NCBI GenBank assembly: GCA_949292785.1
Contig: CASFBK010000014.1
Span: 17,953 to 81,952, forward strand
Length of the DNA stretch: 64,000 nucleotides
Direction: 5' to 3'
DNA from: an uncultured Eubacteriales bacterium
GTDB lineage: Bacteria > Bacillota > Clostridia > Lachnospirales > Lachnospiraceae
Part shown: piece by piece, positions 2,839-27,970 of the stretch
Numbering within the stretch: the first letter of the stretch is position 1
Layout of the letters: each line of letters starts with the position of its first letter
Made by a program: the position numbers and the translations under genes
Notes under the pieces: generated by a model
What the model was told of the DNA's origin: nothing
Databases searched by the model: none
The model's input: only the letters and a program-made list of their open reading frames with translations

Positions 2839-2839
2839 G

Positions 2840-4035: not shown

Positions 4036-4083
4036 AAGAGGCAGCTCTCGTTTTTCGGTGAAAGCGATGAGCTGCCTTTTTCT
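4036..4083 (+). terminator. Rho-independent terminator after serA
   Basis: The stem AGGCAGCTC pairs with GAGCTGCCT, extended by TCG/CGA, and is followed by TTTTTCT on the plus strand; an A-run lies on the other side. It ends the ilvB-serC-serA unit and, lying between convergent genes, can also stop the minus-strand HD-domain gene. Confidence 0.85.
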
Positions 4084-4102
4084 AAAAGCTTTTTCTAAAA
4101 AG

Positions 4103-5383
4103 TTAATGATATTTGTGATTGTAATGGACAAGAATCAGATTCAAAGAGCGGTATTCGTTTACCATCTGCTTATAAGTATCTGACAGGGAAGCACAGGAAA
4201 TTTGTGTTTCCTTAATAATTTCGTCATAGTGCGGTTCTAAAGAAGCAAGGAGCTTGTTATCCATAGAACAGATACGATATTTGTCCCACAAAAAAGCAAG
4301 CAGTGATTGGTGGTGCGCACCAATATCAGAATCCGTTGTCAATGTATTGCTGAACAGATAAGACAATGCGACTACTTCTGAAAGCGGCTCAGGGGAAAAG
4401 GGAATCGGTTTGTTTGTTGTCCAACTGTCTAAAATCAGGAAAGATTGTTCAATGGTTTGAAGAATCTGTTCATCTACATTTCCCTTTAAAATATTTTTTG
4501 TAATTTTCTGTGTAGAATTTTTGTAAATATCTTTTAAATAAGAATCGTAATCCTCCATATTCTGAATGCAGGAGGAAAGAGAAATCTTACCGATATTGTG
4601 AAGCAAAGCAGAAATTTCCGCTATCTTACAGGAAGCAGCATCAAAGGCAAGAACTTTTGAAAGATTGCGGCTTACCTGAACAGCATAACTGGTATGAAGT
4701 GCAGAGTATTCATTGCGGAAGTCTATTGCAAAAATAAGCAGGAGCAGATAGTCGTGTATCTGTTCCTCTGTAAAGGTCAGAGTCTGCATATATTCTGCTA
4801 ATTCCTCGTAATAACTACCGGTATGCAGTCCATCTAAAATATGATATTTCGTGTCTGTCCGCTGAAACCACTGAATATCTTCTTCAGTAAAAACAGAATT
4901 CTGATATCCTTGCAGAAATGGTTGCAAATGTCTTGAGTCGTTAAATTGGCAAAAAATATCAATACGGTCAGCAAGATATAAAATACGAGCCAGACTGCGA
5001 TGATAATCATTAATGGGAACAGAGTAGTATTGAGCGTTGCAATGATGATGATATAAAATAATATTGGCATATTCCTTTAAAGGCGAAAATGTCTGAAAAA
5101 GAAGATAACCAAACACTGTGTGTGCCATAGAATCATTCTGGTCAAAAGAAAGCATCGCATCGATTTCTGCCTCCTTATATGCTCCAATATCGTGAAGCAG
5201 TCCCAGCATAAAAATATTCTGTTTTTCCACAGGAGAAATTTCGGATTTATCCTTGAACATCTGCATAAGTATGTAAGCCACGCGTTCCCCGTGACTATTT
5301 AAACGTGGCTCAATATGCCGAAAAGTATGACTGATAATGCCAGGGATATTAATGATTGATTCCTTCAATAGTGTCACCCCCAT
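4103..5383 (-). CDS. Protein with two HD (HD-GYP-like) phosphohydrolase modules
   Basis: 426-residue soluble protein without signal peptide. The N-terminal half shows an HD-type metal site: H...LLHDIG near residue 88, then HHH near 120 and LADRIDIF near 147, the pattern seen in HD-GYP-like hydrolases. A second, weaker copy in the C-terminal half has ISALLHNIGKISL, where the HD doublet reads HN, so this copy may be inactive. HD-GYP relatives often degrade cyclic di-GMP, but the GYP motif is not clear here, so the substrate is unknown. The ATG at 5383 is the longest start; a TTG at 5368 lies 8 bases after GGGGGTG and could be the true one. It stands alone and is convergent with serA. Confidence 0.75.
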   Translation of the reverse strand: MGVTLLKESIINIPGIISHTFRHIEPRLNSHGERVAYILMQMFKDKSEISPVEKQNIFMLGLLHDIGAYKEAEIDAMLSFDQNDSMAHTVFGYLLFQTFSPLKEYANIILYHHHCNAQYYSVPINDYHRSLARILYLADRIDIFCQFNDSRHLQPFLQGYQNSVFTEEDIQWFQRTDTKYHILDGLHTGSYYEELAEYMQTLTFTEEQIHDYLLLLIFAIDFRNEYSALHTSYAVQVSRNLSKVLAFDAASCKIAEISALLHNIGKISLSSCIQNMEDYDSYLKDIYKNSTQKITKNILKGNVDEQILQTIEQSFLILDSWTTNKPIPFSPEPLSEVVALSYLFSNTLTTDSDIGAHHQSLLAFLWDKYRICSMDNKLLASLEPHYDEIIKETQISCASLSDTYKQMVNEYRSLNLILVHYNHKYH

Positions 5384-5521
5384 AAGTTTATCACGTAAAA
5401 AATAGATATATTAATATTATAGTGAATTTAAAACCGGGTGTCAATGAACATGGTTGCAGAGAAAATCAATCTGTGTTACCATATTGCTACGCAATACTAC
5501 TCAAAAAGAAGGAGAAAAAGC

Positions 5522-6439
5522 ATGTTTGGTGTGATAAGCAAAATAGGCGTTGCATTGGCAGAAACAGGAAGTCAGGATATTGCCGATTTAAAAGAATTAG
5601 AAGAGATGGCGCAAAGTGGTGCGTTAAAGTCTTATTTAGAAAGTCTGGTGCCGGGGATGCTGGGATTTGCATTGCGGGTACTGATTGCTGTCATCATTTA
5701 TTTTATTGGCGGCAAAATCATTAAGTGGCTGCGGAAAATATTGAGAAGGGCTCTGGAACGCTCTAATGTAGATAAAGGCGTATGTCAGTTTCTGGACTCC
5801 TGTGCCAAGATGCTGTTATATTTTATTTTAATTATGATTGTTGTAAATCAGCTGGGGATTGAGACTACATCTGTAGTAGCAGTATTAGGCTCCGCCGGAC
5901 TTACCATAGGACTTGCATTGCAGGGAAGTCTTGCCAATTTTGCAGGTGGTGTATTGATTTTATTATTCAAGCCCTTTAAAGTAGGAGACTATATCATAGA
6001 AGATACTCATAAGAATGAGGGAACTGTTTCTGAGATTATGATTTTTTACACAAAGCTGATTACAGTGGATAATAAGGTGATTGTGATTCCAAACGGAACT
6101 CTTGCCAATGCCAGTCTTACCAATGTAACGAAGCAGGAAAAGCGTCGGTTGGATTTATATGTAGGAATCTCCTATGAAGCAGATATCAAAACAGCAAAAA
6201 AAGTGCTACAGGAGCTTTTGATGCAGGAGCCTGCACGTATCGCAGAGGAAGAAGTAACTGTTTTTGTAGATGCATTGGAGGACAGTAGTGTGAAGCTGGG
6301 CGGAAGAGTGTGGCTAAAGGCAGAAGAATACTGGCGGGCAAAGTGGCGTTTGACGGAAAGTATGAAAGAAAAACTAGAGGAAGCAGGAATTGAAATTCCA
6401 TATAACCAGTTGACTATTTCAATGAAAGAGAAAAAATAG
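5522..6439 (+). CDS. mscS: Small-conductance mechanosensitive channel, MscS family
   Basis: 305-residue inner-membrane channel that opens under membrane tension to release solutes after osmotic downshift. It has about three N-terminal membrane helices. The pore helix carries the Gly/Ala-rich family motif ([14 protein letters not shown]) followed by NFAGG and the FKVGDYI entry into the beta domain, and a soluble C-terminal domain follows. An N-terminal extension of about 40 residues precedes the first helix. The ATG at 5522 has GAAGGAG upstream; in-frame codons further upstream lack a ribosome site. Single gene, read away from the divergent HD-domain gene. Confidence 0.92.
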
Positions 6440-6461
6440 CACAAAAAGAACCTGGTTTTCA

Positions 6462-6490
6462 TTGACATCTATAGTAAAATATGCTAATCT
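6462..6490 (+). promoter_or_regulatory. Promoter of the cold-shock gene
   Basis: TTGACA (6462-6467), 17-base spacer and TAATCT (6485-6490) make a near-consensus vegetative promoter. The predicted leader to the ATG at 6549 is only about 50 nucleotides, shorter than the long leaders of some cold-induced csp genes. Confidence 0.75.
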
Positions 6491-6548
6491 TAAATACGTG
6501 GCAGATACAAACTGCATATATTTTTATGTATTTAGGAGGAAGTGTTTC

Positions 6549-6752
6549 ATGCAACAGGGAACGGTAAAATGGTTTAATGCAAAGAAGGGTTACGGATTTA
6601 TTTCCGATGCAGAGGGGAATGATGTATTTGTACATTTTTCCGCATTGGTCATGGATGGATTCAAGGAATTAAAAGACGGGGAAGCAGTAGAATTTGAAGT
6701 TGTAGATGGGGACAAAGGACCACAGGCTTCTAATGTAAGACGCATAGCTTAA
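6549..6752 (+). CDS. Cold-shock domain protein, CspA family
   Basis: 67-residue single-stranded nucleic-acid binding protein, the usual length for bacterial Csp. Both RNA-binding motifs are present: KGYGFI (RNP1) and VFVHFSA (RNP2). Likely an RNA chaperone in the cytoplasm. The ATG at 6549 follows AGGAGG by about 11 bases. It is monocistronic, with its own promoter and a terminator about 30 bases downstream. Confidence 0.95.
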
Positions 6753-6783
6753 TTCATGAAATTATTCAAATAAAAAGACGAAC

Positions 6784-6815
6784 CAGAGGTTGCTCTTAGG
6801 AGCAGCCTCTTTGCG
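6784..6815 (+). terminator. Terminator after the cold-shock gene
   Basis: The perfect 11-base stem AGAGGTTGCTC / GAGCAGCCTCT allowing one G-U pair, with loop TTAG, is followed by a short T run (TTTG). The weak tail makes it a modest terminator. Confidence 0.65.
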
Positions 6816-6838
6816 TAAACGGAATATTGTGCTATAAT
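6811..6838 (+). promoter_or_regulatory. Promoter of the M16C peptidase gene
   Basis: TTGCGT (6811-6816), 16-base spacer and TATAAT (6833-6838). The -10 is perfect, the -35 is weak and overlaps the preceding terminator. Leader of about 40 bases. Confidence 0.6.
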
Positions 6839-6882
6839 TGAAAAATAAATGGAAATAATAATAGAAAAAAAGGACGAATACT

Positions 6883-9798
6883 ATGAATTTAGAAAACTGT
6901 AAAGCGTATGAATTACTTGAAACAACGAAGCTGGATGATATACAATCCACAGGATATCTTTTACGACATAAGAAGAGCGGGGCGAAAATCAGCCTGATTT
7001 CCAATGAGGATGAAAATAAGGTGTTTTATATTGGATTCCGTACACCGTCTTTAGACAGTACCGGAGCTGCACATATTTTGGAACATTCCGTATTATGCGG
7101 TTCTAAGAAATATCCGGTAAAAGACCCATTCGTGGAACTGGTAAAGAGTTCCTTAAATACATTTTTAAATGCCATGACCTATCCGGATAAGACCATTTAT
7201 CCGGTGGCGAGCTGTAATGAGAAAGATTTTCAAAATCTGATAGAAGTATATATGGATGCTGTATTTCATCCTAATATTTCAGAGCATAAGGAGATTTTCT
7301 GTCAGGAAGGCTGGCACTATGAGATGGAGGATATTAATGCGCCGCTGACCATTAACGGTGTGGTATATAACGAGATGAAGGGTGCCTTTTCCTCCCCGGA
7401 AGAAGTGCTGAGCAGGGAAATCTTAAGTACGCTATACCCGGATACCTCTTACTTCTACGAATCCGGCGGAGACCCGGAAGTGATACCCACACTTTCTTAT
7501 GAGAAGTTCTTAGCCTTCCATCAGAAATACTATCATCCATGCAATTCCTATATTTATCTGTATGGAAACATGGATATGGAAGAAAAGTTAAACTGGATGG
7601 ATCAGGAGTATCTGGGAAAATATGATGCTATCGAGATAGATTCCAAGGTAAAATGGCAGGAACCGTTTGAACAGGTAAAGGAAGTAAAAATACCTTATAA
7701 TATCGCAAGCGGGGAAAGCTTAAAGGACAATACCTATCTTTCTTATAACATCAGTACAGGAACGATTTTGGATAAAGAACTGTATGTGGCATTTGACATT
7801 TTGGATTATGCCTTGTTAAGTGCGCCCGGAGCACCATTGAAGCAGGCACTTTTAGATGCCGGAATCGGTAAGGATATTATGGCATCCTTTGATAATTATA
7901 CGCTCCAGCCAATGTTTTCTATTGTGGCAAAGAACAGCAATATAGAGAAAAAGGAAGAGTTCCTTTCCATTATCCGCAGCGTGTTAGAAGAGCAGGTGAA
8001 GAATGGAATCAACAAAAAATCTCTTCTTGCAGGAATCAATAGCTTTGAATTCAAATATAGAGAAGCAGATTTTGGACAGTTTCCCAAGGGACTTTTGATG
8101 GGAATTAAGTGTCTGGACAGTTGGATTTATGATGAAACACAGCCATTCCTGCATCTGGAAGCATTAGAAGTTGTTGAGTTCTTAAAGAAACAGGTAGAGA
8201 CAGATTATTTTGAACAACTGGTACAGAAATATTTATTAGATAATACCCATGCGGCAGTCGTAATCGTAGAGCCGCAGTATGGACTGAATGCCAAAAAGGA
8301 AGAAAAACTGGCGGAAGAATTAGAGACTTATAAAAATTCCTTAAGTGAAGCAGAGAAGCAGGAGATTGTGGATTTTACGCATCATTTAAAGAAATATCAG
8401 GAGGAGCCGTCTGCACCGGAAGACCTGGATAAGATTCCGACACTGACAAGAGAAGATATTAAAAAGGACGCAGAAAAGCTTTATATCCGTGAAAAGTATC
8501 TGGATGACACATTGATGCTTTGTCATGATGTAGACACCAACGGAATTGCATATTTCAGCCTGATATTCGACGTGACGGATATACCGACACATCTGATTCC
8601 TTATATGGGATTAATGAAGGCAGTATTGGGCTACGTGGATACAGAGCATTACACCTTCCCGGAGCTTGCCAATGAAATCAACCTTCATACCGGCGGAATC
8701 TTTTCTAACATTGGTTCCTATGCCCATGTAGAAAAAAATACCGTCAGCCTGAAATATGAAATCAAAGCAAAGACACTATATAAGGCAATTCCAAAGACCT
8801 TAGAAATTATTCGTGAGATTCTTACCAGCAGCAATTATTTCAAACAGGAGCGTTTGTATGAGATTCTGGCACAGCTGAAATCAAGATTACAGATGAGCAT
8901 GAGCGGCGCCGGACATTCCATTTCCGCCATGCGTGCCATGTCTTATTTCTCTGTCAGTGGAAAATATTCAGATATGACAGAAGGAATTGAGTTCTATCAG
9001 TTAATCAAAGAACTAGAAGAGCACTTTGAGGAAAAGAAAGACCAGTTGAGCAAGACCTTAGAAGAGCTTGCCGGCTATATCTTCCGCAAGGATAATCTTA
9101 TGATAAGTGCAGGAGCACAGCCGGAGGGACTAGAAGCGCTGGAAAAAGAAATTCCAAAGGTAAAACAGATTTTAAAGGATGCACCAAAGGAAAGAAAGCC
9201 GGAAGGCTTAACACTAGAAAAGAAAAACGAAGGATTTTTGGATGCTTCCCAGGTACAGTATGTGTCAAGAGCCGGAAACTTCAAAAAAGCCGGATACGAA
9301 TACACCGGAGCACTCCGTATCTTAAAAGTGCTTTTAAGCTATGACTATCTCTGGATTAATATCCGTGTAAAGGGCGGCGCCTACGGCTGTATGAGTGGAT
9401 TTACCAGAAGAGGAGATGCATATTTTTCCTCTTACCGCGACCCGAACCTTTCTAAGACCAATGAGATATATGAAGGAATTCCGGAATATTTAAAGACCTT
9501 TACCGTAGAAGAAAAGGAAATGACAAAGTATATTATCGGAACCTTTAGTGATGTAGATGCGCCATTGACGCCGGCTGGCAAGACAGGAAGAAGTGCAACG
9601 GCATATCTGACCGGAGTGACCTATGAGATGATTCAGAAAGAGAGACAGGAAATCCTGAATGCTACACAGCAGGATATCCGCGCACTTTCCGGTATCGTGG
9701 AAGCAATTTTAAAGGAAGAAGCGCTCTGTGTCATTGGAAATGAAGAGAAGCTCAAGGAAGAACAGGGATTATTTAAAGAACTGAAAAATCTGTATTAA
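6883..9798 (+). CDS. Zinc metallopeptidase of family M16C (PreP/Cym1-like)
   Basis: 971-residue cytoplasmic peptidase of the insulinase superfamily. The inverted zinc motif HILEH is at residues 64-68, and the downstream acidic region (residues 130-160, with WHYEME and NEMKGAF) supplies the third ligand. The size and central linker with M16C-associated region match the single-chain presequence-protease type, which degrades oligopeptides in a closed chamber. No signal peptide is visible, so it probably recycles intracellular peptides. The start ATG at 6883 follows AAAAGGA. It is read toward era with a 19-base gap. Confidence 0.92.
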   Translation: MNLENCKAYELLETTKLDDIQSTGYLLRHKKSGAKISLISNEDENKVFYIGFRTPSLDSTGAAHILEHSVLCGSKKYPVKDPFVELVKSSLNTFLNAMTYPDKTIYPVASCNEKDFQNLIEVYMDAVFHPNISEHKEIFCQEGWHYEMEDINAPLTINGVVYNEMKGAFSSPEEVLSREILSTLYPDTSYFYESGGDPEVIPTLSYEKFLAFHQKYYHPCNSYIYLYGNMDMEEKLNWMDQEYLGKYDAIEIDSKVKWQEPFEQVKEVKIPYNIASGESLKDNTYLSYNISTGTILDKELYVAFDILDYALLSAPGAPLKQALLDAGIGKDIMASFDNYTLQPMFSIVAKNSNIEKKEEFLSIIRSVLEEQVKNGINKKSLLAGINSFEFKYREADFGQFPKGLLMGIKCLDSWIYDETQPFLHLEALEVVEFLKKQVETDYFEQLVQKYLLDNTHAAVVIVEPQYGLNAKKEEKLAEELETYKNSLSEAEKQEIVDFTHHLKKYQEEPSAPEDLDKIPTLTREDIKKDAEKLYIREKYLDDTLMLCHDVDTNGIAYFSLIFDVTDIPTHLIPYMGLMKAVLGYVDTEHYTFPELANEINLHTGGIFSNIGSYAHVEKNTVSLKYEIKAKTLYKAIPKTLEIIREILTSSNYFKQERLYEILAQLKSRLQMSMSGAGHSISAMRAMSYFSVSGKYSDMTEGIEFYQLIKELEEHFEEKKDQLSKTLEELAGYIFRKDNLMISAGAQPEGLEALEKEIPKVKQILKDAPKERKPEGLTLEKKNEGFLDASQVQYVSRAGNFKKAGYEYTGALRILKVLLSYDYLWINIRVKGGAYGCMSGFTRRGDAYFSSYRDPNLSKTNEIYEGIPEYLKTFTVEEKEMTKYIIGTFSDVDAPLTPAGKTGRSATAYLTGVTYEMIQKERQEILNATQQDIRALSGIVEAILKEEALCVIGNEEKLKEEQGLFKELKNLY

Positions 9799-17754: not shown

Positions 17755-19317
17755 CTATTTATTTTTCAGCAAATTATTTATTTCATCCACCATTCCATTA
17801 ATGCTATTTGCCTGAGTTGTCATTTCTGAGATATCATTTACATTTGTTTCCACCATTGCATTGATAGAAACAAACTGCTCATTTTCATTTCTAATACTTT
17901 CTGCAATATCCTGATTGATGGACACTGTATTTTTAATAACGTCAGACTGTTTGTTATGTGCATCCCCCATTGTATTCACTGCAGTTACGGTTACATTGAG
18001 AAGCTCCGTCATATCCTGCATTCCTTTAAATACATTATTATAATATTCGCTCTGTTTATTCAGCTTTTGAGAATTTTCTTTTACATGGAGGGTTATTTCC
18101 TCAACATTATTTTGAACTCTTGCAATAACAGTTTCTACTTCATCTAAGGATTCTTTTGTGCTGTTAGCCAGTTTACCTACCTCCTGTGCAACGACTGCAA
18201 ATCCTTTTCCGGCTTCGCCGGCGCGGGCAGCTTCGATGGAAGCATTCAGTGCAAGTAAGTTGGTGGAAGCGGAGATTTCATTAATAAGATTCAATGTAAC
18301 TCCAATTTCGTTTACGGCATCTGATAATTTTTGCGCCACATTTATCGTTGCCGACATGGATGTTGAAACTTCATTGTTAATAGAATGTAAATCATTTAAT
18401 AATTGTTCGTTATCCCTGGATTTATCCAATAAATCCTTTGAAGTTATTTCTACTTTTTTTACGTTGTCAGCAACAACTGTTTCCCACTTGTTTAGTTCCG
18501 TAAGATTCAACATACTTTCTTCTGTTTTTTGACTCAATAAATTACTGCTTGCTAATAATTGTTCGCTTGTTGCAGACAATTCTTCTGCGGAGGCACTTTC
18601 ATTTTCGGTAATGGAAGAAAGCGTTGTTCCGGCAGAATACAGATTTTTAGATAAGGTTTGAACAGAAGATAATACTTTTCTTACCTGTTCGTTGTTGCGC
18701 TCCATTTCATCCCTTTTTGCAGTGATCAGGAAGCGCTGGATTAAGTAGGTTAATAATACGGTTGTTGGTAAGGAGAGCGCCACACAAACAACGCGGTCAA
18801 GCATATTGCCTATAAAAAATTCATTTTGTATTGGCAGATGTATTTCGCTCCAAAGAAACCACGATATAACTACAGAAGCAGCAATTTCTATTGAGGTCGC
18901 TGCGACCATTTTATAATCCAGAAAAAACGAGGTCAGTATTACAAAAAAGAATGAAAAGCCCCAGAAATCAGTAGCAGGTATCATATAAAGGATAAAGTTA
19001 AACTGAATGAACATAATTAAAACAAGAAAAATCTTTCCGGCTTTCAATTTATTTTTGTCAACCAGACCGTTTCTAAATCCGGTTCGCACAAAATAAATTC
19101 CGGTAGCCAGATATATGAGACAGGTGATATCAAATATTATTAATGCAAGCCAGCTGACGGATGGAAACCAGCCCATTATCTTTCCGAAAGTATAAAGCAG
19201 TCCGGCACATTGACAGGCTCCTGGCACTAAAAGCAGAACCAGAACATAAACTTTGTTTATGTATTCGTCTATTGCTGATAAAGATTTTTTTGAAGTATCA
19301 TTTTCAGTAATTTTCAT
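17755..19317 (-). CDS. Chemoreceptor with six-helix membrane sensor and no HAMP domain
   Basis: 520-residue methyl-accepting chemotaxis protein of unusual build. Residues 1-195 contain about six membrane helices (near 22-42, 53-77, 94-113, 118-135, 137-155, 170-194) with almost no extracellular domain; no HAMP follows. The coiled-coil signalling domain has the CheA/CheW-binding tip near residues 335-375 ([16 protein letters not shown]). The membrane part aligns along its length with that of the divergent histidine kinase at 19491: both have VPGxCxCAG in helix 1 (Cys35 and Cys37 here), NFILY in helix 3, and QRFL or ERFL at the end of the last helix. It therefore probably senses the same membrane or membrane-permeable signal. 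Known: the tip motif. Inference: shared ligand. Confidence 0.9.
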
Positions 19318-19396
19318 AAAATTCCCTCTCCTTTTATAACGTCTTTTGTTATATTATACAATGAATTAAAAACAGAAAGAAAAGAAATTTATTATC

Positions 19397-19423
19397 TGGT
19401 CAAAAATAACCCTTAATTGGTCA
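19397..19423 (+). promoter_or_regulatory. Direct repeat TGGTCA x2, 21 bp apart: candidate LytTR operator
   Basis: TGGTCA at 19397-19402 and again at 19418-19423, exactly 21 bases apart (two helical turns), with the second copy touching the -35 of the kinase promoter. Direct repeats of this spacing next to a -35 are typical of LytTR regulators such as AgrA or ComE, and the second gene of the operon encodes one. Confidence 0.5.
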
Positions 19424-19452
19424 TTGCATTTTCTGAAAATAAGAAGTAATAT
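19424..19452 (+). promoter_or_regulatory. Promoter of the histidine kinase operon
   Basis: TTGCAT (19424-19429), 17-base spacer, TAATAT (19447-19452). A second TATAAT-like box for the divergent chemoreceptor lies on the minus strand at 19353-19358 with a poor -35. Confidence 0.55.
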
Positions 19453-19490
19453 AAAAAATAGTATACATTTGTGGGAAATAGGAGAATAGA

Positions 19491-20687
19491 ATGAATATTA
19501 TAAAAAAATACTGGGATTCAGTTTACATATATGTATTACTTCTGGTTCCCGGTTTATGCATGTGCGCAGGAATATTCTGGACAGTCTGTAAATGGAGGGG
19601 ACTATATCCGAATTTAGCATGGAGTGAAATTATAGTGTTTGATGGCAGTCAGCTTGTATATCTTGCAGTTGCCTTATTTTTTATATACCGGAATAAAAAA
19701 GATTCTTCTTATATTTCTGAACATTTAATGTATGTAAAAGGTTTTATCATTTTTGCATTATTCCTGCAATATAATTTTATCCTATATTTGTTTTCGTCCG
19801 TTTATGTATGGGAATGTACCTTTCTCTTTTTTGCAATTATTGTATTTTTGTTTGACAGTAAATTGATGCTTTTGAATATAATGTCATATTTCTGTTCCTT
19901 GCTGGTGGCACATATTTTAAGACCGGAGAAATTCCTTCCCCTGGAACAAGCGAATTTACCGGAAATAATTGCATATAGAGTGGTTATTTTTATCCTTACT
20001 GCGTTTTGCATTATGATTATTGTATATTTTGTTGAGCGTTTTCTGATGCAGGCGAGAGAAAGTAATGAGGAAAATATACACCTGATGAAAAAACAGCTGG
20101 AATATTATAAGGACATGGAGTTTTTAGATACGGAGATTAGAAAATTCCGTCATGATATAAAAAATCATTTTATTTGTATGGAGTCGCTTTTACACAATGG
20201 TAATGTAGAAGAACTGCAGCAATATTTTTCAGATTTGCAACAGTCAATTTCATTTCAGAAAAAAATGTATTTTTCCGGAAATGAAATCGTGGATGCCATC
20301 CTACAGCATGATTTGCCACATTATTGTAAGGAAGAAGTGAATGTTACAATATACGGAAATCTGCCTTGTATTGGGAACGTTTCTGCAATGGATTTATGTA
20401 CTCTGTTTTCAAATCTTCTTTCAAATGCCATTACTTCCGCAAATCAATGCGTTGGCATTTCAGATTCCCAGCTTACGATACATTTTTCGAGCGGAGAAAA
20501 ATATTTTTCCATTGCAATGTCAAATAGCATTCTAAACAAGAGTAGTATAAAAAGCAGAAAAAAGCAGGACAGGAATCATGGTTTTGGCATTAATAAAATA
20601 AAAAATGTATTAGAGAAGTATGATGGAAGATTTGAACTGAATGTAGGGCAGGAAATATTGACAATAAAAGTATATCTTCCTATTTAG
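19491..20687 (+). CDS. Membrane sensor histidine kinase, GHKL/AgrC-like (HPK10 type)
   Basis: 398 residues. Residues 1-195 hold six membrane helices homologous to those of the divergent chemoreceptor, including a CxC pair (Cys23, Cys25) in helix 1. The kinase part has the phosphoacceptor His221 in KFRHDIKNH, an N-box NLLSNAITSA near residue 320, and a glycine-rich G-box (NHGFGINKI) near 373, as in the AgrC/CitA-like GHKL group. Many relatives sense peptides, but no precursor peptide gene is seen here. GGAGAA precedes the ATG at 19491. The partner regulator starts 25 bases after its stop. Confidence 0.9.
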   Translation: MNIIKKYWDSVYIYVLLLVPGLCMCAGIFWTVCKWRGLYPNLAWSEIIVFDGSQLVYLAVALFFIYRNKKDSSYISEHLMYVKGFIIFALFLQYNFILYLFSSVYVWECTFLFFAIIVFLFDSKLMLLNIMSYFCSLLVAHILRPEKFLPLEQANLPEIIAYRVVIFILTAFCIMIIVYFVERFLMQARESNEENIHLMKKQLEYYKDMEFLDTEIRKFRHDIKNHFICMESLLHNGNVEELQQYFSDLQQSISFQKKMYFSGNEIVDAILQHDLPHYCKEEVNVTIYGNLPCIGNVSAMDLCTLFSNLLSNAITSANQCVGISDSQLTIHFSSGEKYFSIAMSNSILNKSSIKSRKKQDRNHGFGINKIKNVLEKYDGRFELNVGQEILTIKVYLPI

Positions 20688-20712
20688 ATATTACCATACA
20701 AAGGAGAATTAA

Positions 20713-21426
20713 ATGAAAATAGTATTATGCGATGACCAGAAAAGTGTTTCGGATGAATTGGGGCGTTTCATAAAAAAGTTTGATGAAAAAAATCAGCAGC
20801 AGAATGAATTTTTGTATTTTTCAAAGCCTTCCACATTATTTGAATATATGCAGGAAGAGACAGTCGATCTTATCTTTATGGACCTTGAATTTTGTAATGC
20901 GTCAGATGACGGAATTATCTGGCTGAAAAAAATAAAAATGCATTTTCCACGTACTGTTGTTATTATTCTTACAGCATATGAAAATCGCTATAAAGAGGGA
21001 TATGAAGCAAGGGCTTTTCGTTTTATGACAAAGCCGATTGAAGAAAAAGAGTTATTTGAGTATCTGCGTGTTAGCATGGAGGAGCTTTGGCTTACAAAAA
21101 GTATTTCTTTAATGAGACGTGGGATTCCATATAATATTTCAATTCGGGATATTTGTTATTTTTCGGCTCAGTCCGGTGGAAGTGAGTTATGGACCACAAC
21201 AGATATGTATTGCTGTGAGGAAAGCCTGTTACAATGGGAGCAGCGGTTGCCAAAGACTATTTTTTTCCGCTGCCATAGCAAGTATCTGGTGAATCTGGCT
21301 CGTGTGACCAAGTTTGAAAATCAGGTTTTAACCCTGGTTGATGGAGAGAAGATACCGGTTTCGCGCAGAAGATGGAAAGCATTTCAACTGGCATATATGA
21401 AGTTTGATACAAAAGATTTTTTGTAA
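20713..21426 (+). CDS. LytTR-family response regulator
   Basis: 237 residues: CheY-like receiver with acidic pocket (CDDQ), phosphoacceptor Asp57 in IFMDLEF, Thr87 and Lys107 (TKPI), then a LytTR DNA-binding domain from about 130 to 230 (RCHSKYLVNL, then IPVSRRR). It should receive phosphate from the kinase just upstream. AAAGGAGAA precedes the ATG. The direct repeat at 19397-19423 is a plausible autoregulatory site, and the divergent chemoreceptor a plausible second target. Confidence 0.93.
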   Translation: MKIVLCDDQKSVSDELGRFIKKFDEKNQQQNEFLYFSKPSTLFEYMQEETVDLIFMDLEFCNASDDGIIWLKKIKMHFPRTVVIILTAYENRYKEGYEARAFRFMTKPIEEKELFEYLRVSMEELWLTKSISLMRRGIPYNISIRDICYFSAQSGGSELWTTTDMYCCEESLLQWEQRLPKTIFFRCHSKYLVNLARVTKFENQVLTLVDGEKIPVSRRRWKAFQLAYMKFDTKDFL

Positions 21427-21455: not shown

Positions 21456-21484
21456 GTGGACTATTTGTCGAAATCTGGTATAAT
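21456..21484 (+). promoter_or_regulatory. Possible promoter of the phospholipid cluster
   Basis: TATAAT at 21479-21484 is perfect; the -35 (GTGGAC at 21456-21461, 17-base spacer) is weak. It predicts a leader of about 25 bases before the ATG at 21516. Confidence 0.45.
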
Positions 21485-21515
21485 ATTCTTTAGTTGCAGT
21501 ATGAGGAGACGAGGC

Positions 21516-22202
21516 ATGAAGGAAAAGAAGAATAAAAAGATTTCGGCATATTCGTATATCGCTTTGCCATTATTAGCATGTCTGGCAGTAAATTTTCTTG
21601 TGTATTCAATTATCGCACCGATGACAGACAGCTGGAAACATTATGATTTAACCACGGCTTTTGACCGGGCGGTTCCTGTGATACCGGAATTCGTAATTAT
21701 ATATTTGGGATGTTATATTTTCTGGGTGGTGAATTACATCTTAATTGCAGCGCAGGGAAAGGAATATTGTTATCGTTTTGCAACGGCAGATATTATGGCT
21801 CGATTGCCCTGTTTGCTGTTTTTCCTGTTTCTGCCAACGACAAATGTGCGACCGGTGCTGGCGGATGGCGGTATATGGGAGTTTGTTTTACAGTTTGTAT
21901 ATGATATGGATGCTCCAACCCGGTTATTTCCATCGATACATTGTCTGGTCAGCTGGTTTTGCTATATCGGAATCCGGGGGCGAAAGAATATTCCAAAGTG
22001 GTATCAGATATTTTCCTGTATCTTTGCACTGCTTGTCTGTGCCTCTACACAGTTTACAAAGCAGCATTATATTGTAGATGTGTTTGGCGGAATCATTATT
22101 GCAGAAGTAACTTATTATATATCATTCCACACAAATTGTTACCGCCTGCTGGAACGTATATGTGATAGGATATGGGAAAGGATTTATAAGCGTGGAAAGT
22201 AA
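21516..22202 (+). CDS. PAP2-family membrane phosphatase
   Basis: 228-residue membrane protein with about six helices. PAP2 catalytic motifs are visible: FPSIHC near residue 146 (motif 2) and STQFTKQHYIVDVFGG near 185 (motif 3, with His-x3-Asp). The enzymes dephosphorylate lipid phosphates such as phosphatidate or undecaprenyl pyrophosphate. The ATG at 21516 has GAGGAGACGAGG upstream; an upstream GTG frame lacks a site. It overlaps the next gene by 11 bases, starting a four-gene lipid operon. Confidence 0.85.
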   Translation: MKEKKNKKISAYSYIALPLLACLAVNFLVYSIIAPMTDSWKHYDLTTAFDRAVPVIPEFVIIYLGCYIFWVVNYILIAAQGKEYCYRFATADIMARLPCLLFFLFLPTTNVRPVLADGGIWEFVLQFVYDMDAPTRLFPSIHCLVSWFCYIGIRGRKNIPKWYQIFSCIFALLVCASTQFTKQHYIVDVFGGIIIAEVTYYISFHTNCYRLLERICDRIWERIYKRGK

Positions 22203-23220
22203 GAAAAAGAAGATTGGAAATGTGTTGTTTCTTGGGATTGTATTTCTGCTGACACTTTATAGTGTGTTTCACGGGGAAGACCTGCATGCAGTTGTAGAAG
22301 CAATACGTGAGGTCAAGCCTGGATATATCATAGCAGCGGGAGCAGCAGTTATATTTTTTATCTGGGGAGAATCCATTATTATCCATTATATGTTCGGAAC
22401 CTTAAGTATTAAGACAAAGAAAAGAACCTGTTTTCTGTATTCCTGTGTGGGCTTTTTTTTCAGTGCAATTACACCGTCAGCGACCGGTGGACAGCCGGCA
22501 CAGATTTATTATATGCGTAAGAATAAAATTCCAATTCCAGTGGCTACATTGGTTCTGATGATTGTTACAATTACATATAAATCAGTATTAGTCTTTATTG
22601 GTCTGTTTGTAGCATTTTTTCAAAAGGGATTTGTACATCGGTATTTAGAAGGGATTCTTCCCATATTTTACCTTGGAGTAGCATTAAATGTATTCTGTTG
22701 TATTTTCATGTCGTTTTTGGTGTTTTCTCCGAATCTTGCCAAGAATATGCTGATAAAGGGGATGCATGTGTTAGAGCGTATTCATCTTATGAAGAAGAAG
22801 CCGGAACGTAAAGTGAAATTAGAAGCTTCCATGGAACATTATGAAGCAGCGGCAGAATATTTTAAGAGTCATAAGAAAGTAATCGGAAATGTATTGATGA
22901 TTACTTTTCTGCAACGATTTGCGTTGTTCTTTGTAACATGGTTCGTTTATAAGGCATTTCGTTTAAGTGGAACCGGCATATATGATGTGGTAATGCTGCA
23001 GGCAGTAGTATCCGTGTCGGTAGATATGCTTCCGTTGCCGGGAGGAATGGGAATTAGTGAGAATTTATTCCTGATAATTTTTAAAGGTGTTTTTGCCGGA
23101 AGTCTTTTGCTTCCGGGAATGGTGTTAAGCCGGGGAATTGCATATTATGTACAACTGCTGTTTAGCGCGGTGATGACAGGTGTGGCACATTTTACGATAG
23201 GATATTCACAAACAGAGTGA
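22192..23220 (+). CDS. Lysylphosphatidylglycerol synthase-type flippase domain protein (UPF0104)
   Basis: 342-residue membrane protein with about eight helices, like the N-terminal flippase domain of MprF and the YbhN family, without the lysyltransferase domain. Family signatures include TPSATGGQPAQ near residue 103 and LPLPGGMGISE near 280. The probable start is GTG at 22192, 10 bases after GGAAAGGA, overlapping the end of the PAP2 gene. A phospholipid-transfer role in the same pathway as pssA and psd is inferred from context. Confidence 0.8.
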   Translation: MESKKKKIGNVLFLGIVFLLTLYSVFHGEDLHAVVEAIREVKPGYIIAAGAAVIFFIWGESIIIHYMFGTLSIKTKKRTCFLYSCVGFFFSAITPSATGGQPAQIYYMRKNKIPIPVATLVLMIVTITYKSVLVFIGLFVAFFQKGFVHRYLEGILPIFYLGVALNVFCCIFMSFLVFSPNLAKNMLIKGMHVLERIHLMKKKPERKVKLEASMEHYEAAAEYFKSHKKVIGNVLMITFLQRFALFFVTWFVYKAFRLSGTGIYDVVMLQAVVSVSVDMLPLPGGMGISENLFLIIFKGVFAGSLLLPGMVLSRGIAYYVQLLFSAVMTGVAHFTIGYSQTE

Positions 23221-23244
23221 TGAGAAAGAAACGGGGAAAGAGAA

Positions 23245-23919
23245 ATGATAGGATTTTATAATTATTCGGTAATATTAACGTATGTTAGTCTGTTGTCTTC
23301 TGTGTTTGGAATGACACAGGCAATTCATGGAAGATTCAAAACAGCGATTTTTTGTCTGGCATTATCTGGTCTGTGTGATATGTTTGATGGAAAAATCGCC
23401 CGGGCAATGAAGAACCGGACAGAGGATGAGAAATCATTTGGTATCCAGATAGATTCGCTGTGTGACATGGTCTGTTTTGGAGTATTCCCGGCAATGATTT
23501 GTTATCTTCTGGGAGTACGCGGTGTAATTGGAATGATAGTAATTGCCATTTACTGTATCAATTCAGTGATACGTCTGGCATACTTTAATGTGATGGAAGC
23601 AAAGAATGCATTGGTATCGGAAGATGGAGAGAAGTTTTATAAGGGACTGCCCATTACCTCAATGGCTATCGTGCTGCCTCTTGTTTTTATGGTTCAGTTT
23701 TTTATACCGGATTATGCTTTTCGTATCTGCCTGTATGCAGCGTTGCTCATCGTAGGTATTTTGTTTGTGGTTGATTTTAAATTAAAAAAGCCAAAGAATT
23801 CTACCTTGGCAGTATTAGTGGTAATCGTTGCTATTGCTTTGGCTATAATGATTACATTTACACAATATAGGGTAGAGTTCCGTGCAATCTGGCCGTGGAT
23901 GCAGATGGTACGAAGATAG
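23245..23919 (+). CDS. pssA: CDP-diacylglycerol-serine O-phosphatidyltransferase
   Basis: 224-residue integral membrane enzyme making phosphatidylserine from CDP-diacylglycerol and serine. The CDP-alcohol phosphatidyltransferase motif is complete though stretched: DMFDGKIAR, then FG near residue 75 and D...D (QIDSLCD). About six helices. Assigned as PssA rather than PgsA because psd follows by 12 bases. GGGGAAAGAG precedes the ATG. Confidence 0.9.
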   Translation: MIGFYNYSVILTYVSLLSSVFGMTQAIHGRFKTAIFCLALSGLCDMFDGKIARAMKNRTEDEKSFGIQIDSLCDMVCFGVFPAMICYLLGVRGVIGMIVIAIYCINSVIRLAYFNVMEAKNALVSEDGEKFYKGLPITSMAIVLPLVFMVQFFIPDYAFRICLYAALLIVGILFVVDFKLKKPKNSTLAVLVVIVAIALAIMITFTQYRVEFRAIWPWMQMVRR

Positions 23920-23931
23920 AAAGGAAGAACA

Positions 23932-24801
23932 ATGAAGTACATAGATCGCAACGGAAATATCACCATAGAAGATTCCGGACAGGATAAACTGTTGTACTGG
24001 ATGTATAATAGTCCTATTGGCAGAAAACTATTAAAAATTTTAATAAAGCCCGGTATCTCTAAGGCGGCGGGGTGGCTCTTGAATCAGCGGTGTTCTAAGA
24101 TATTGATTCAACCGTTTATTCGAAAGAATCATATTGATATGAGCCTTTATGAAGAAAAGGATTATGAGTCTTACAATGATTTTTTCATCAGACAGATACG
24201 AAAGGAATGTCGCCCGATAGAAGGAGATGAAAATACGCTTATCAGTCCTTGTGATGGGAAATTAAGTGTTTATCCGGTGGAAGAGGATAGCCGATTTAAA
24301 ATAAAAAATACAGAGTATACATTGGAGTCCCTGCTGCGTTCTAAGAGGCTTGCTAAAAAATATCAGGGTGGTTATGTATGTGTCTTTCGATTGACGGTAG
24401 ATGATTACCATCGTTTCTGTTATGTGGATAATGGTAGAAAGTCTAAAAATTATCGTATCCCGGGCGTGTTCCATACGGTGAATCCTGCTGCCAATGATGT
24501 GTGTCCGATATATAAGGAAAATACCAGAGAGTTTTCTTTGCTAAAGAGTGAACACTTCAAGACGATTCTGATGATGGAAGTGGGAGCGCTTATGGTAGGA
24601 AGAATTGTGAATCATCAGGAAGAAGCCAATGTGTCAAGAGGAATGGAGAAAGGAACCTTTGAATTCGGCGGTTCTACTGTGATTTTGATGTTACAGAAAA
24701 ATGCAGTAACATTGGAAAAAGATATATTGCAGAATACCCAAAATGGCTATGAGACCATTGTGAAGATGGGAGAGCAGATAGGAAAAAAATGGCAGGTCTA
24801 G
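23932..24801 (+). CDS. psd: Phosphatidylserine decarboxylase proenzyme
   Basis: 289-residue enzyme converting phosphatidylserine to phosphatidylethanolamine. The self-cleavage motif is seen as FGGST near residue 245 (usual form LGST); the serine becomes the pyruvoyl group. DDYHRF near residue 160 carries a conserved His. With PssA it makes this a PE-producing Gram-positive. It is 12 bases after pssA; the gene end lies inside a terminator stem. Confidence 0.93.
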   Translation: MKYIDRNGNITIEDSGQDKLLYWMYNSPIGRKLLKILIKPGISKAAGWLLNQRCSKILIQPFIRKNHIDMSLYEEKDYESYNDFFIRQIRKECRPIEGDENTLISPCDGKLSVYPVEEDSRFKIKNTEYTLESLLRSKRLAKKYQGGYVCVFRLTVDDYHRFCYVDNGRKSKNYRIPGVFHTVNPAANDVCPIYKENTREFSLLKSEHFKTILMMEVGALMVGRIVNHQEEANVSRGMEKGTFEFGGSTVILMLQKNAVTLEKDILQNTQNGYETIVKMGEQIGKKWQV

Positions 24802-24898: not shown

Positions 24899-24940
24899 AT
24901 ATTGTGTATGAGTATTACGAAAGCAAGGGAGGAAATACCA

Positions 24941-26254
24941 ATGAAGAAAAACAGAATTGGAATGATTACAATGCTGTTACTACTAGCATTTGCCTTGGTT
25001 GGATGTGGAAGTGCTAAAAAGGAAACGGGCAGTGTTTACTACCTGAATTTTAAGCCGGAAGTGGCAGATGTATGGGAAGAAATTGCAAGCACCTATACAG
25101 AGGAAACCGGAGTGGAGGTAAAGGTAATTACAGCGGCAAGCGGTACCTATGAGCAGGTATTGCAGTCCGAAATTGCAAAAAGAGATGCACCAACATTGTT
25201 TCAGATTAATGGACCGATCGGATATGAAAGCTGGTCTGAGTTCTGTCTCGATTTGAAAGATACAGATTTGTATAATCATTTGCTGGATAAAAGTCTTGCG
25301 GTAGAAACAGAGGATGGCGTATTTGGAATTCCATACGTAGTAGAGGGTTATGGTATTATCTATAACGAAAGTATTATGAATAAATATTTTGCACTGCCGG
25401 ATAAGGCAGTATCCATCTCTTCTACGGACGAGATTACCAGCTATGATTTATTAAAAGCGGTTGTAGAGGATATGACGCTGCATAAGGAGCAGCTTGGAAT
25501 AGAAGGAGCATTTGCATCTACTTCTCTTGCATCCGGTGAGGACTGGAGATGGCAGACACACCTTATGAATATGCCGATTTATTATGAATTCGCGGATAAA
25601 GATGTCAGTGATTTGGATGAGATCGATTTTACATATGCGGACAATTTTAAAAATATTTTTGATTTATATGTAAATAATTCCACCACTGAGCCTTCTCAGT
25701 TGGGAAGCAAGACGGTAAACGATTCCATGGAAGAATTTGCGCTTGGAAAAGCGGCGATGGTTCAAAACGGTAACTGGGCATGGAGCCAGATTAGTGCCGT
25801 AAGTGGAAATGTAGTTTCCGAAGATGATGTGAAGTTCCTGCCTATCTATATTGGTGTGGACGGAGAAGAAAGTCAGGGAATCTGTATTGGTACAGAGAAC
25901 TATTTTAGTGTGAACAGCTGGGCATCTGAGGAAGACCAGAAAGCGACCATTGACTTTGTGGAATGGCTTTTTACTTCTGATATTGGGAAAGATTATGTAA
26001 CTAACAAGCTGGGATTTATATCACCGTTTGATACCTTTGATGATGATGAGCAGCCGACGGACCCACTGGCACAGCAGGTAATTGAGGCAATGGCAGATGA
26101 AAGTCGTCAGAGCGTGGCATGGAACTTTACTGCATTCCCCGGACAGCTTTTTAAGGACCAGTTCGGAGCAGACCTTTTAGCTTATGTGAAGGGTGAAATG
26201 ACCTGGAGTGACGTGGTAAGCGATGTAAAGACACAGTGGAAGGAACAAAAATAA
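24941..26254 (+). CDS. Lipoprotein solute-binding protein, family 1 (sugar type)
   Basis: 437 residues. Lipoprotein signal with lipobox ALVGC (Cys22). The mature protein has the two-lobed layout of family 1 extracellular solute-binding proteins: VWEEIASTYTEETG near the start, GIPY near residue 125, and EFALGKAAMVQNGNWAW near 265, typical of oligosaccharide binders. GGGAGG lies 10 bases before the ATG at 24941; a longer in-frame start is unlikely. No ABC permease or ATPase gene is nearby. Instead a chemoreceptor follows 30 bases later, so its main role may be to present a ligand to that receptor. Confidence 0.9.
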   Translation: MKKNRIGMITMLLLLAFALVGCGSAKKETGSVYYLNFKPEVADVWEEIASTYTEETGVEVKVITAASGTYEQVLQSEIAKRDAPTLFQINGPIGYESWSEFCLDLKDTDLYNHLLDKSLAVETEDGVFGIPYVVEGYGIIYNESIMNKYFALPDKAVSISSTDEITSYDLLKAVVEDMTLHKEQLGIEGAFASTSLASGEDWRWQTHLMNMPIYYEFADKDVSDLDEIDFTYADNFKNIFDLYVNNSTTEPSQLGSKTVNDSMEEFALGKAAMVQNGNWAWSQISAVSGNVVSEDDVKFLPIYIGVDGEESQGICIGTENYFSVNSWASEEDQKATIDFVEWLFTSDIGKDYVTNKLGFISPFDTFDDDEQPTDPLAQQVIEAMADESRQSVAWNFTAFPGQLFKDQFGADLLAYVKGEMTWSDVVSDVKTQWKEQK

Positions 26255-26284: not shown

Positions 26285-27970
26285 ATGAAGAAAATATTTG
26301 GAACCATAAAGGGGAAAGTATCCATTATGATGATTTCCACTTCCATTCTGCTGATAGCTGGAATTTTGATAGCGTCCAGAATTGTAAGTGAGAAAAATGT
26401 AGTTTCACTTTGTGAAAATTATTTATATGATGTGTGTATTTCGGCGTCAGATACTTTGTATGAAAGTTTCTGGGGAGATACAGAACGAACAGATATGTCA
26501 GTACGTCTTGAATTTATTTTAAATAGTGTTGGTATTGATGGAATGAAGTCCAGTGAAGCGTGTCTGGTAGATACAGATGGAACCTATCTTTACACGAAGG
26601 ACCGAAGCAAGATGGGAACCGTTATTGAAGGAAACAGTGTTATTCAGGAGGTTTTAGATACTCTGAATAACGAAGGCGTCATCACGACTGCTGATGTGCG
26701 GGAGTGTACTGTAGATGGAGAAGAGAAATATGTAGCCTTCATGTGTACTGTAAATAATTGGGTATTATTTGTACAGGCAGATAAGGCAGAAGTAATGGAG
26801 CCAATCAATACCATGAATATGTACTGTATGATAGTGGGAGTGATTCTGGTAGCAGTGATTATTCTTATCGGTTACATGATTACTTCTGTGATTACAAGAC
26901 CGATTCGCCCATTGACAAAGGTAATTCACTCTATCTCCGAGTTTGACTTATCCATGCAGGAAAAGATGCCAAAGACCAGGGACGAGATTGGAAATATGGG
27001 ACTGGCAGTCCTGGATATGAAGGATAAGCTGGCGGAGATTGTGGCAAAATTAAGTGCAATTTCCGAAAAGCTGTTAAATAGTTCCGAAGAGTTAAGTGAT
27101 ATTTCTAAGGAAGTAAATATGGCTTCAACAGATAACTCTGCAACAACGGAAGAGCTTGCGGCAGGAATGGAGGAGACCTCAGCATCTTCTGAGTCCATTA
27201 ACGAAAGCATTGCGGATATGCAGGATAACGTCATCAATGTAACAGGCAAGATTAAAGAAGGAACGCAGATGACGTATGATATTATGGAGAAGTCCGAGCA
27301 GCTGGCAAGCCAGAGTGAAAAGGCAAATCAGAATACCATGCAGATGTATGATGCCATTCGAAAGGTGTCAAAGGATGCGATCGAAAAGGCGTCTGCGGTA
27401 GATAAGATTAACGAATTAACCGGCACGATTCAGGAAATCGCAGAAGAGACTACATTGTTATCCCTGAATGCATCTATTGAGGCGGCAAGAGCAGGAGAAA
27501 ACGGAAGAGGCTTTGCAGTTGTGGCAGACCAGATTGGAAAACTTGCGGAGCAAAGCTCTAGTACTGCCACCAGTATTATTGATATTGTAGACCAGGTAAA
27601 TGAATCCGTACAGACTTTAATGGATTGTCTGAAACAGACTCTGGAGTTCCTTGGAACAGAGGTCACCAAGGATTACAGTGATTTCCTTGCGTCTGGAAGG
27701 GAATACAAAGAAGCCGCAGAGCAGATACAGAACTTTATGGTAGAAGCGGAACGGGAAGCAGAGGAACTGGAAAAAGGAATTACTGTCATCACAGAAGCAA
27801 TCGGAGGAATCAATACCACCATCAACGAATCCGCAGAGGGTGTATCTGATATTGCAGGTAAGACCACAGATGTCGTAAATTATACGGAAAATCTCTATGA
27901 AATGACAAAAGAATGTAGAGAATTGTCCAAGCAGTTAAATGAAATTACTTCCGGATTCAAGATGGAATAG
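26285..27970 (+). CDS. Methyl-accepting chemotaxis protein with extracellular sensor and HAMP
   Basis: 561-residue chemoreceptor of standard topology: membrane helix at about 11-31, extracellular domain of about 145 residues (likely single Cache; [13 protein letters not shown] near 92-104), second helix at about 178-200, HAMP to about 253, then the signalling coiled coil with tip [17 protein letters not shown]-like sequence near 400. Probably co-transcribed with the solute-binding protein before it. A terminator follows 25 bases after the stop. Confidence 0.93.

Follow-up and report, generated by a model that had tools for sequence, protein, structure and literature searches.

In gut Lachnospiraceae, as judged from sequence comparison, the same membrane sensor is carried by an MCP chemoreceptor and by a gene-control histidine kinase that are encoded back to back. 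Newly recognised here, a conserved LytTR-type direct repeat lies between the two genes, in a register fixed to the -10 element of the MCP promoter. This suggests that the regulator of the kinase switches on both its own genes and the receptor by which the cell steers its swimming.

The divergent locus and its genes

The window is a stretch of 64,000 nucleotides from an uncultured Eubacteriales bacterium, and its relevant features are as follows.

17755..19317, minus strand: MCP chemoreceptor, 520 aa, with MCPsignal at residues 317-465
18718..19275, minus strand: sensor domain of the MCP (about residues 15-200), from the alignment and an AlphaFold2 model
19353..19358, minus strand: predicted -10 of the MCP promoter, TATAAT on the minus strand, 45 nt from its first base to the first GGT of the repeat
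19396..19425, plus strand: predicted LytTR operator, 9-bp direct repeats CTGGTCAAA and TTGGTCATT, 12 bp apart, period 21
19424..19452, plus strand: predicted kinase promoter, -35 TTGCAT (19424-19429), 17-bp spacer, -10 TAATAT (19447-19452)
19491..20687, plus strand: GHKL (HATPase_c_5) sensor histidine kinase, 398 aa
19491..20060, plus strand: sensor domain of the kinase (about residues 1-190), from the alignment, genome search and an AlphaFold2 model
20713..21426, plus strand: LytTR response regulator, 237 aa

The genes lie at the positions given in the preliminary description, and Pfam agrees with the identities given there, namely a HAMP-less MCP, a divergent GHKL kinase and a LytTR regulator. 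The MCP matched MCPsignal (E 6e-29, 101.5 bits), the kinase HATPase_c_5 (E 8.8e-19, 67.8 bits against a cut-off of 22) and the regulator both LytTR (E 1e-19) and Response_reg (E 1.7e-13). A HAMP linker, which is common in transmembrane MCPs though not defining, was not detected in the MCP in a Pfam scan at E ≤ 1. The kinase and regulator genes of the window are separated by 25 bp, and the genome holds one CheA gene.

A sensor domain shared by different outputs

The first ~190 residues of the MCP and the kinase aligned from end to end, as had been described, and without gaps; BLASTP found 58 of 188 residues identical (31%) with 103 bits and an E-value of 1e-32, which refers to a single comparison of two N-termini. 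The motifs named earlier were all present (VPGACQCAG/VPGLCMCAG, NFILY in helix 3, FFLDYK/FLFDSK and RFL). The match also stood out in the genome: a genome-wide search with the kinase sensor (E ≤ 10), which narrowed 11 first-look candidates down, listed two places, the kinase itself and the neighbouring MCP (E 6.4e-29), and no third copy at that threshold, so that the match lies above what any polytopic protein would give. The proposal of one sensor with different outputs was likewise borne out, since five kinds of output were found fused to the domain, including GGDEF, GGDEF-EAL and histidine kinases. MCP fusions form the majority of the copies found (39/67 in the sensor tree, counting two MCP fragments).

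AlphaFold2 models of the kinase sensor (pLDDT 88.7, pTM 0.81) and the MCP sensor (pLDDT 87.0, pTM 0.77) predicted six main helices. Fold searches with both models returned nothing at E ≤ 0.001 (best E 0.08). The top PDB match of each was the diguanylate cyclase ImcA (E 0.08, prob 0.98, TMq 0.46 for the kinase sensor; E 0.74, prob 0.82, TMq 0.54 for the MCP sensor), and AC9 was listed for both with TMq 0.57 each, all with E-values similar to those of unrelated proteins. By sequence, PDB gave no match at E ≤ 1, and no accepted Pfam or NCBIfam match to the sensor domain was obtained for the 26 members scanned with Pfam; among the MASE models only MASE11 appeared, at E 2.5 in 1/26 members. Weak, scattered matches in one or a few members, such as those to CCC_membrane (E 0.0052 at best, 6/26 members) and TMEM260-like (E 0.0066, 1/26 members), were judged without family cut-offs and read as chance. 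The earlier statement that no named system has this design is consistent with the lack of a family for the sensor domain in these searches, and searches of the open-licence PMC literature for the divergent pair or the shared sensor found nothing that named this pair. The sensor domain may represent a new family within the Lachnospiraceae of the gut.

Residue conservation was counted over 67 distinct domain sequences, after 4 of 71 rows (the half-domains from L046 and L071, both broken loci) had been dropped. The preliminary description had called the CxC pair of helix 1 conserved, which holds insofar as both Cys occur in 48/67 domains but not in the sense of invariance, because 7/67 have neither; the pair is common but not essential. 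The same pair had been proposed to sense metal, heme or redox state. Besides the prevalence of the pair, the kinases speak for such a sensor, as C23 and a third Cys, C109, are both invariant in them (23/23). On the MCP side, however, C109 is found in none, C23 is absent from 4/18 paired MCPs, and both Cys of the pair are kept in 14/18 paired MCPs versus 12/21 kinase-less MCPs; nor does an accepted family match to the sensor lend the idea support. We therefore consider a metal, heme or redox site a weak proposal and quite unlikely. W107, F113 and D122 (each 67/67), K83 (66/67) and Q93 (65/67) would be better signatures of the domain than CxC.

Pairing of kinase and chemoreceptor across loci

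Comparison of 24 kinase loci, including the window, confirmed that the divergent gene pair is conserved, with a divergent same-sensor MCP at 18 of them. In the other six, the MCP start lay at a contig end (one locus), the locus was broken but kept MCP fragments (three) or there was no MCP (two, L059 and L062). In the sensor tree, all kinase sensors fell on one side of a branch with 100/100 support, apart from every MCP sensor, and the sensors of the partner MCPs were spread over four groups, with at least 8 changes. Local duplication of the sensor, which had been suggested for the pair, is ruled out by this topology. AU tests without the long-branch L067 rejected trees in which the A-partnered kinases (p 1.07e-49) or the B-partnered kinases (p 3.66e-5) were held together, p-values weakened by the naming of the partner groups once the sensor tree had been seen. 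In addition, the tree of MCP tails disagreed with the sensor groups in places (e.g. L070, L067 and L027-L029), so sensor and tail have also been exchanged among MCPs. Together, the trees show that partners have been exchanged between kinase and MCP lineages, be it as entire genes or as segments encoding the sensor.

Little else at these loci is shared. When 17 window genes were compared with 16 loci (11 with the kinase and 5 with the MCP only), only members of the MCP-kinase-regulator trio were found in place, with the exceptions of L050 and L053, which had other MCPs, and of L074, with a weak enzyme match. In an all-against-all comparison of genes of at least 150 aa from the 24 loci, none of the families occurred in more than 8 loci, apart from those of the trio itself; one gene family was present in 8 and another in 5, at varying positions. 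Flanking genes were common to L059, L061 and L062. Phospholipid genes lie 3' of the trio in the window, but they provide no evidence for the signal because the flanking genes are not conserved across loci.

These comparisons bear on the possibility that the locus is an AgrC/ComD-like quorum-sensing system for a peptide or lipid, to which the chemoreceptor adds taxis towards the autoinducer. The combination of a HATPase_c_5 kinase and a LytTR regulator, which we take to be the AgrC/AgrA class, would fit such a system. A six-TM quorum-sensing receptor, CqsS, controls a cyclase when it replaces the membrane anchor of the latter, according to PMC4821796. Nevertheless, the 24 loci have no further family in common among genes of at least 150 aa, and the kinase-regulator gap of the window is only 25 bp, which leaves quorum sensing a very improbable explanation.

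A direct repeat in register with the chemoreceptor promoter

The GGT of the intergenic repeats reads toward the kinase promoter, and the second repeat, as delimited here, shares 2 bases with the -35-like TTGCAT of the kinase in the window. A GGT pair with a period of 20-22 was found within 200 bp upstream of 20/22 kinase genes, counted without the broken L069, L071 and L072, against a shuffle expectation of 1.95; because the loci are kin, these counts lack independence, and relatedness does not enter into the shuffle control. The period was 21 at 19 kinase genes and 20 at L067. An upstream GGT pair was absent from 19/20 kinase-less MCPs (leaving out L046, whose frame is broken), and the single MCP bearing it has no exact -10 in register.

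Measured from the first GGT, a -10 with 5 or 6 of 6 bases stood at 45 or 46 nt on the MCP side of 18/21 sites, while at any other distance within 36 to 55 nt a -10 facing the divergent gene was seen in at most 3 sites. The second kinase of L063 faces an OmpR-type regulator, and therefore the register for MCPs is 17/18. For this comparison, the sites of L055 and L059, which have no perfect GGT pair, were set by hand, and in the two-pair loci L057, L063 and L064 the pair nearest the kinase was used, the other pairs having no -10 in register. L056 has no -10 in register; L067, outside the 21 sites, has an exact -10 at 45 nt from its upstream, farther pair. The MCP-less L059 and L062 have no -10 at 45-46 nt, and their -10-like hexamers lie elsewhere (5/6 bases at 43 nt in L059; exact at 50 nt in L062). 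The bases between the repeat and the MCP-side -10 vary, with the distance kept. With a 17-bp spacer assumed, the position expected for the MCP-side -35 showed no consensus among the 12 loci at 45 nt, the plus-strand majorities being A A A G A G. On the kinase side, 10/21 sites have a -10 whose distance from the second GGT is exactly 27 nt; that of the window lies at 28 nt and has 4/6 bases.

A genome scan with the repeat pattern (≤ 3 mismatches) yielded 2 forward and 0 reverse matches, and a backward control yielded 2 and 3. As the control matched as often, only the intergenic site, with 1 mismatch, is believable; more degenerate targets may exist elsewhere in the genome. Since this only believable site lies between both genes and in the register of the MCP promoter, the controlled genes probably include the chemoreceptor. 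The earlier proposal, in which one signal feeds both motility and gene expression, is therefore incomplete, in that the chemoreceptor itself is probably controlled.

The repeat could instead serve autoactivation of the kinase operon only, with the two outputs in parallel and the MCP promoter separate and constitutive. Autoregulation through such repeats is common in LytTR systems, as stated in PMC6193735, and the repeat abuts the kinase -35. Such an arrangement would not account for an MCP-side -10 kept at 45-46 nt in 18/21 sites across four partner groups with varying intervening bases, for the out-of-register -10 in both MCP-less loci, or for an MCP promoter whose -35 place lacks a consensus at the 12 loci, and we regard it as unlikely. 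Alternatively, the regulator might repress the MCP, so that receptor and gene-expression response would be alternatives. The asymmetry of the repeats, whose GGT points to the kinase promoter, speaks for repression, but the repeat sits upstream of where the MCP promoter would have its -35, which fits activation better than blocking, as does the missing -35 consensus, and little credence is given to repression here.

A proposed inducible circuit

We consider it probable that the kinase and regulator form a closed circuit which induces its own operon and a matched receptor. The six-helix membrane sensor of the kinase would detect a ligand or a membrane state, and the kinase would pass a phosphoryl group on to the LytTR regulator. 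The regulator would then bind the single direct-repeat pair between the divergent genes and activate both its own operon and the adjoining chemoreceptor gene. In the chemoreceptor, helix 6 would connect the matching sensor with the coiled coil for chemotaxis, such that the cell would make the receptor when its cognate signal is present and then steer by it. Binding by the regulator, activation and not repression of the MCP, and a same or similar signal for both sensors are inferred. The fixed distance of the MCP-side -10 speaks for the circuit, and the kinase-side distance is fixed in about half of the sites.

Some observations point the other way. Being direct, the repeats are asymmetric, and rightward activation may not mean leftward activation. 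The MCP and kinase sensors, at 31% identity, may bind different ligands. In L059 and L062, the kinase has been kept without an MCP.

It is also conceivable, although we hold this more tentatively, that the kinase-regulator cassette repeatedly captures any chemoreceptor with a matching sensor and places it under its own operator, which would yield an inducible chemoreceptor circuit.

Relation to known systems

AgrC/AgrA-type two-component systems (GHKL kinase of the HPK10 class with a LytTR regulator) resemble this locus in their parts, as they too join a polytopic membrane sensor to a HATPase_c_5 kinase. The sensor described here, by contrast, lies outside known families, no peptide gene was found with the cassette among the genes of at least 150 aa compared, a chemoreceptor bearing the shared sensor is encoded divergently, and both sides seem to be served by a single repeat pair. 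A further likeness is reported for AgrA in PMC4227749, where direct repeats are placed between two promoters of an intergenic region. In the HdrRM/BrsRM LytTR regulatory systems, for which positive autoregulation is predicted, two direct repeats of 9 bp, with a gap of 12 bp (11-13), precede the -35 by 4-11 bp (PMC6193735). The window shares the 9 + 12 + 9 bp architecture of these characterised autoactivated promoters and differs in the 2-bp overlap with the -35; in HdrRM/BrsRM, moreover, the LytTR regulator is paired with a membrane inhibitor, as opposed to a kinase and MCP.

The six-TM domains of MASE-type proteins and class III adenylyl cyclases likewise have six helices, the last running into the output, and the sensor described here is similarly joined to GGDEF, GGDEF-EAL and histidine kinases; there is, however, no significant sequence or fold match, and most copies of the present domain are on MCPs. 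Cache and four-helix bundle sensors are common to MCPs and kinases, usually unlinked. They too provide one input domain for chemotaxis and two-component outputs, whereas here the pair forms one divergent unit whose partners are exchanged.

Implications

The ligands of chemoreceptors are hard to find, and a kinase with a matched sensor and a promoter suited to reporters may offer a second, independent readout of the sensor, so that transcription could be used to screen for a ligand and taxis to check it. The proposed circuit, if correct, would exemplify feed-forward control in chemotaxis as it occurs in nature. If chemoreceptors are indeed captured as suggested, a ligand would induce the very receptor used to swim by it, and the match between sensors, not the lineage of the receptor gene, would be under selection.

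Shared sensor domain of the chemoreceptor and the kinase

It had been proposed from the sequence that a single membrane sensor serves both a chemoreceptor (MCP) and a two-component kinase encoded next to it. The genes concerned are as follows.

17755-19317, minus strand: MCP, MCPsignal (Pfam)
19491-20687, plus strand: GHKL kinase, HATPase_c_5 (Pfam)
20713-21426, plus strand: LytTR regulator beside the kinase, Response_reg and LytTR (Pfam)

No HAMP domain was found in the MCP by the Pfam scan. The N-terminal ~190 residues are common to the MCP and the GHKL kinase, with 58 of 188 positions identical in an ungapped alignment (103 bits, E 1e-32). When the whole of the own genome (3.65 Mb, 99.74% complete) was searched with the kinase sensor at E <= 10, only the kinase itself and the window MCP (E 6.4e-29) were recovered; because nothing else matched genome-wide, the question of whether the two are more alike than unrelated six-helix proteins is answered in favour of homology. 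The proposal that one sensor feeds differing outputs is also borne out, as the domain was found fused to MCP, GHKL kinase, GGDEF, GGDEF-EAL and HisKA hybrid kinase outputs. Locus L011 (214-3570) has two genes in tandem that both carry this sensor, one ending in GGDEF and the other in GGDEF-EAL (the latter reaching the locus end, incomplete), possibly an opposed cyclase/phosphodiesterase pair on one sensor.

No Pfam or NCBIfam family was an accepted match for any of 26 domain sequences, each scanned alone, and no PDB sequence matched a 40-sequence profile at E <= 1. AlphaFold2 models, built from alignments that combined window sequences with those of named genomes, show six main helices in both the kinase sensor (pLDDT 88.7, pTM 0.81) and the MCP sensor (pLDDT 87.0, pTM 0.77), with helix 6 (residues 154-201) extending toward the output. 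The top Foldseek PDB match of both models was ImcA, a diguanylate cyclase of Pseudomonas (E 0.08 and 0.74), and AC9, a human adenylyl cyclase, appeared in both lists (TMq 0.57, ranks 6 and 11); neither model had a PDB match at E 0.001, and similar E-values were given by many unrelated helical proteins. By resemblance only, the modelled sensor may thus be described as a MASE- or cyclase-like six-helix type.

In the window's family, 27 of 397 genomes matched the domain profile. Of 299 genomes drawn from the whole phylum only the window's own did so, and of 291 drawn from the class 4 did: the own genome, one more member of the same family, and two belonging to a single other family, in which the copies carry MCP tails. 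Within the genus, a single-sequence search matched 4 of 29 genomes, the other three having MCP forms 63-66% identical to the window MCP. A kinase-sensor scan of named genome contigs yielded 23 loci in records titled Lachnospiraceae, Roseburia, Lachnospira, Robinsoniella or Clostridiales, and deer, goat or cattle gut samples are named in many of these titles.

The preliminary description also singled out a CxC pair in helix 1, whose conservation held in part. Both cysteines are present in 48 of 67 domains (19/23 kinases, 14/18 paired MCPs, 12/21 other MCPs and 3/5 remaining outputs) and neither in 7; the first occurs in all 23 kinases. A further cysteine, C109 in helix 4, is found in 23/23 kinases and in no other output. 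Since CxC is not universal and C109 is confined to kinases, it is unlikely that all copies of the domain share one cofactor site, and the three cysteines may have a kinase-specific role.

Conservation of the divergent gene pair

Pairing was counted in 24 loci (the window plus the 23 named-contig kinase loci). The divergent arrangement proved to be conserved: a same-sensor MCP lies divergent from the kinase in 18 (including L056, with a short MCP frame of 325 aa), the first 34 residues of one precede the contig edge in L060, and three broken loci (L069, L071 and L072) retain MCP fragments on the opposite strand. The divergent MCP is absent from L059 and L062; their sister L061 has it, and flanking genes are common to all three. 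The regulator gene comes after the kinase gene in all but one of the 24 loci (as two frames in L056), and in the other, L065, the contig ends just past the kinase. Apart from the sensor genes and the regulator, every gene family (>= 150 aa) is confined to at most 8 of these loci.

Locus L063 holds a cluster (2269-8954) of two kinase-regulator pairs, one MCP and one OmpR-type regulator; the second pair stands opposite the regulator gene, labelled OmpR-type by reading of its sequence, instead of an MCP. In L071 (5779-7321), the sensor frames of the MCP and the kinase lie on opposite strands and overlap, and each lacks its N-terminus, reflecting either a join made in assembly or a rearrangement involving both genes. 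In the window, the regulator is followed by a run of lipid genes encoding PAP2, LPG_synthase_TM, CDP-alcohol phosphatidyltransferase and phosphatidylserine decarboxylase (21456-24801, plus strand), which was not found beside the trio in 11 other kinase loci compared. A second MCP (26285-27970, plus strand; weak HAMP match, 24.1 bits against a cut-off of 25) is immediately preceded by a solute-binding protein gene (24902-26254), and the two are likely a binding-protein-fed chemoreceptor pair.

Predicted operator and promoters

The predicted LytTR repeats of the window are CTGGTCAAA and TTGGTCATT. Their 12-bp spacing is that usual in characterised LytTR systems, where, according to PMC6193735, 9-bp repeats mostly 12 bp apart lie 4-11 bp upstream of the -35 and autoregulation is positive; in contrast to that position, the second window repeat overlaps a -35-like TTGCAT by two bases. 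For AgrA, PMC4227749 places direct repeats centred near -60, between two promoters.

With the three broken loci left out, 20 of 22 kinase genes have a GGT pair of period 20-22 in the 200 bp upstream, against 1.95 expected from dinucleotide shuffles; the period is 21 in 19 genes and 20 in L067, and L055 and L059, which have no perfect pair, each have one GGT altered. Twenty-one sites were aligned on the repeat (L067 excluded, L055 and L059 positioned manually, the kinase-nearest pair taken where there were two). A -10 (5 or 6 of 6 bases) facing the divergent gene lies 45 nt from the first GGT in 12 sites and 46 nt in 6, and no other distance between 36 and 55 has one in more than 3 sites, while the intervening bases vary. 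This register holds for 17 of 18 MCPs, the exception being L056; the remaining in-register -10 faces the OmpR-type gene of L063, at 46 nt. The MCP-less L059 and L062 have no -10 at 45-46, and carry out-of-register hexamers at 43 (5 of 6) and 50 (exact), respectively. L067 has an exact -10 at 45, measured from its farther GGT pair. On the kinase side, a -10 (5/6 bases) lies 27 nt from the second GGT in 10 of 21 sites; that of the window is at 28 (4/6 bases).

Among 20 kinase-less MCPs (260 bp upstream; 175 bp for locus L007), only L025 has a GGT pair, of period 22, with no exact -10 found in register; five paired MCPs in the same comparison, from loci already in the kinase counts, all have one. 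The own genome contains one operator-pattern site at 1 mismatch, and one further match at 3 mismatches was no better than control. It also has one CheA match.

Exchange of chemoreceptor partners

In a tree of 67 sensors, the 23 kinase sensors form one side of a branch with 100/100 support, and the sensors of the partner MCPs divide into four groups, A to D. On a concatenated kinase and regulator tree (22 rows, 19 group-labelled, the second kinase of L063 taken as D), partner group requires at least 8 changes against a possible minimum of 3, these being parsimony counts on sensor-defined groups and not numbers of events; well-supported branches alone force fewer (4 for A, 3 for B). Without the long-branch L067 the count is again 8, and trees uniting A partners (p 1.07e-49) or B partners (p 3.66e-5) in one clade are rejected. 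With all six labels, 11 changes are needed against a shuffled mean of 12.6; therefore, partner type hardly appears to track kinase descent. The MCP tails show additional shuffling.

Proposed circuit

Precedents exist separately for shared input domains and for LytTR autoregulation. No description combining a kinase cassette, a matching-sensor MCP, exchanged partners and one shared operator was found in aimed searches of an open-licence library, which does not prove that none is published. The predicted operator is conserved in register, and beyond this we infer the following steps. A ligand or membrane state would alter the six-helix bundle, and helix 6 would carry the change onward, to the GHKL core and then the LytTR regulator in the kinase, and directly to the chemotaxis coiled coil in the MCP, with no HAMP domain between. 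From a single operator, the regulator may in turn upregulate both its own operon and the MCP.
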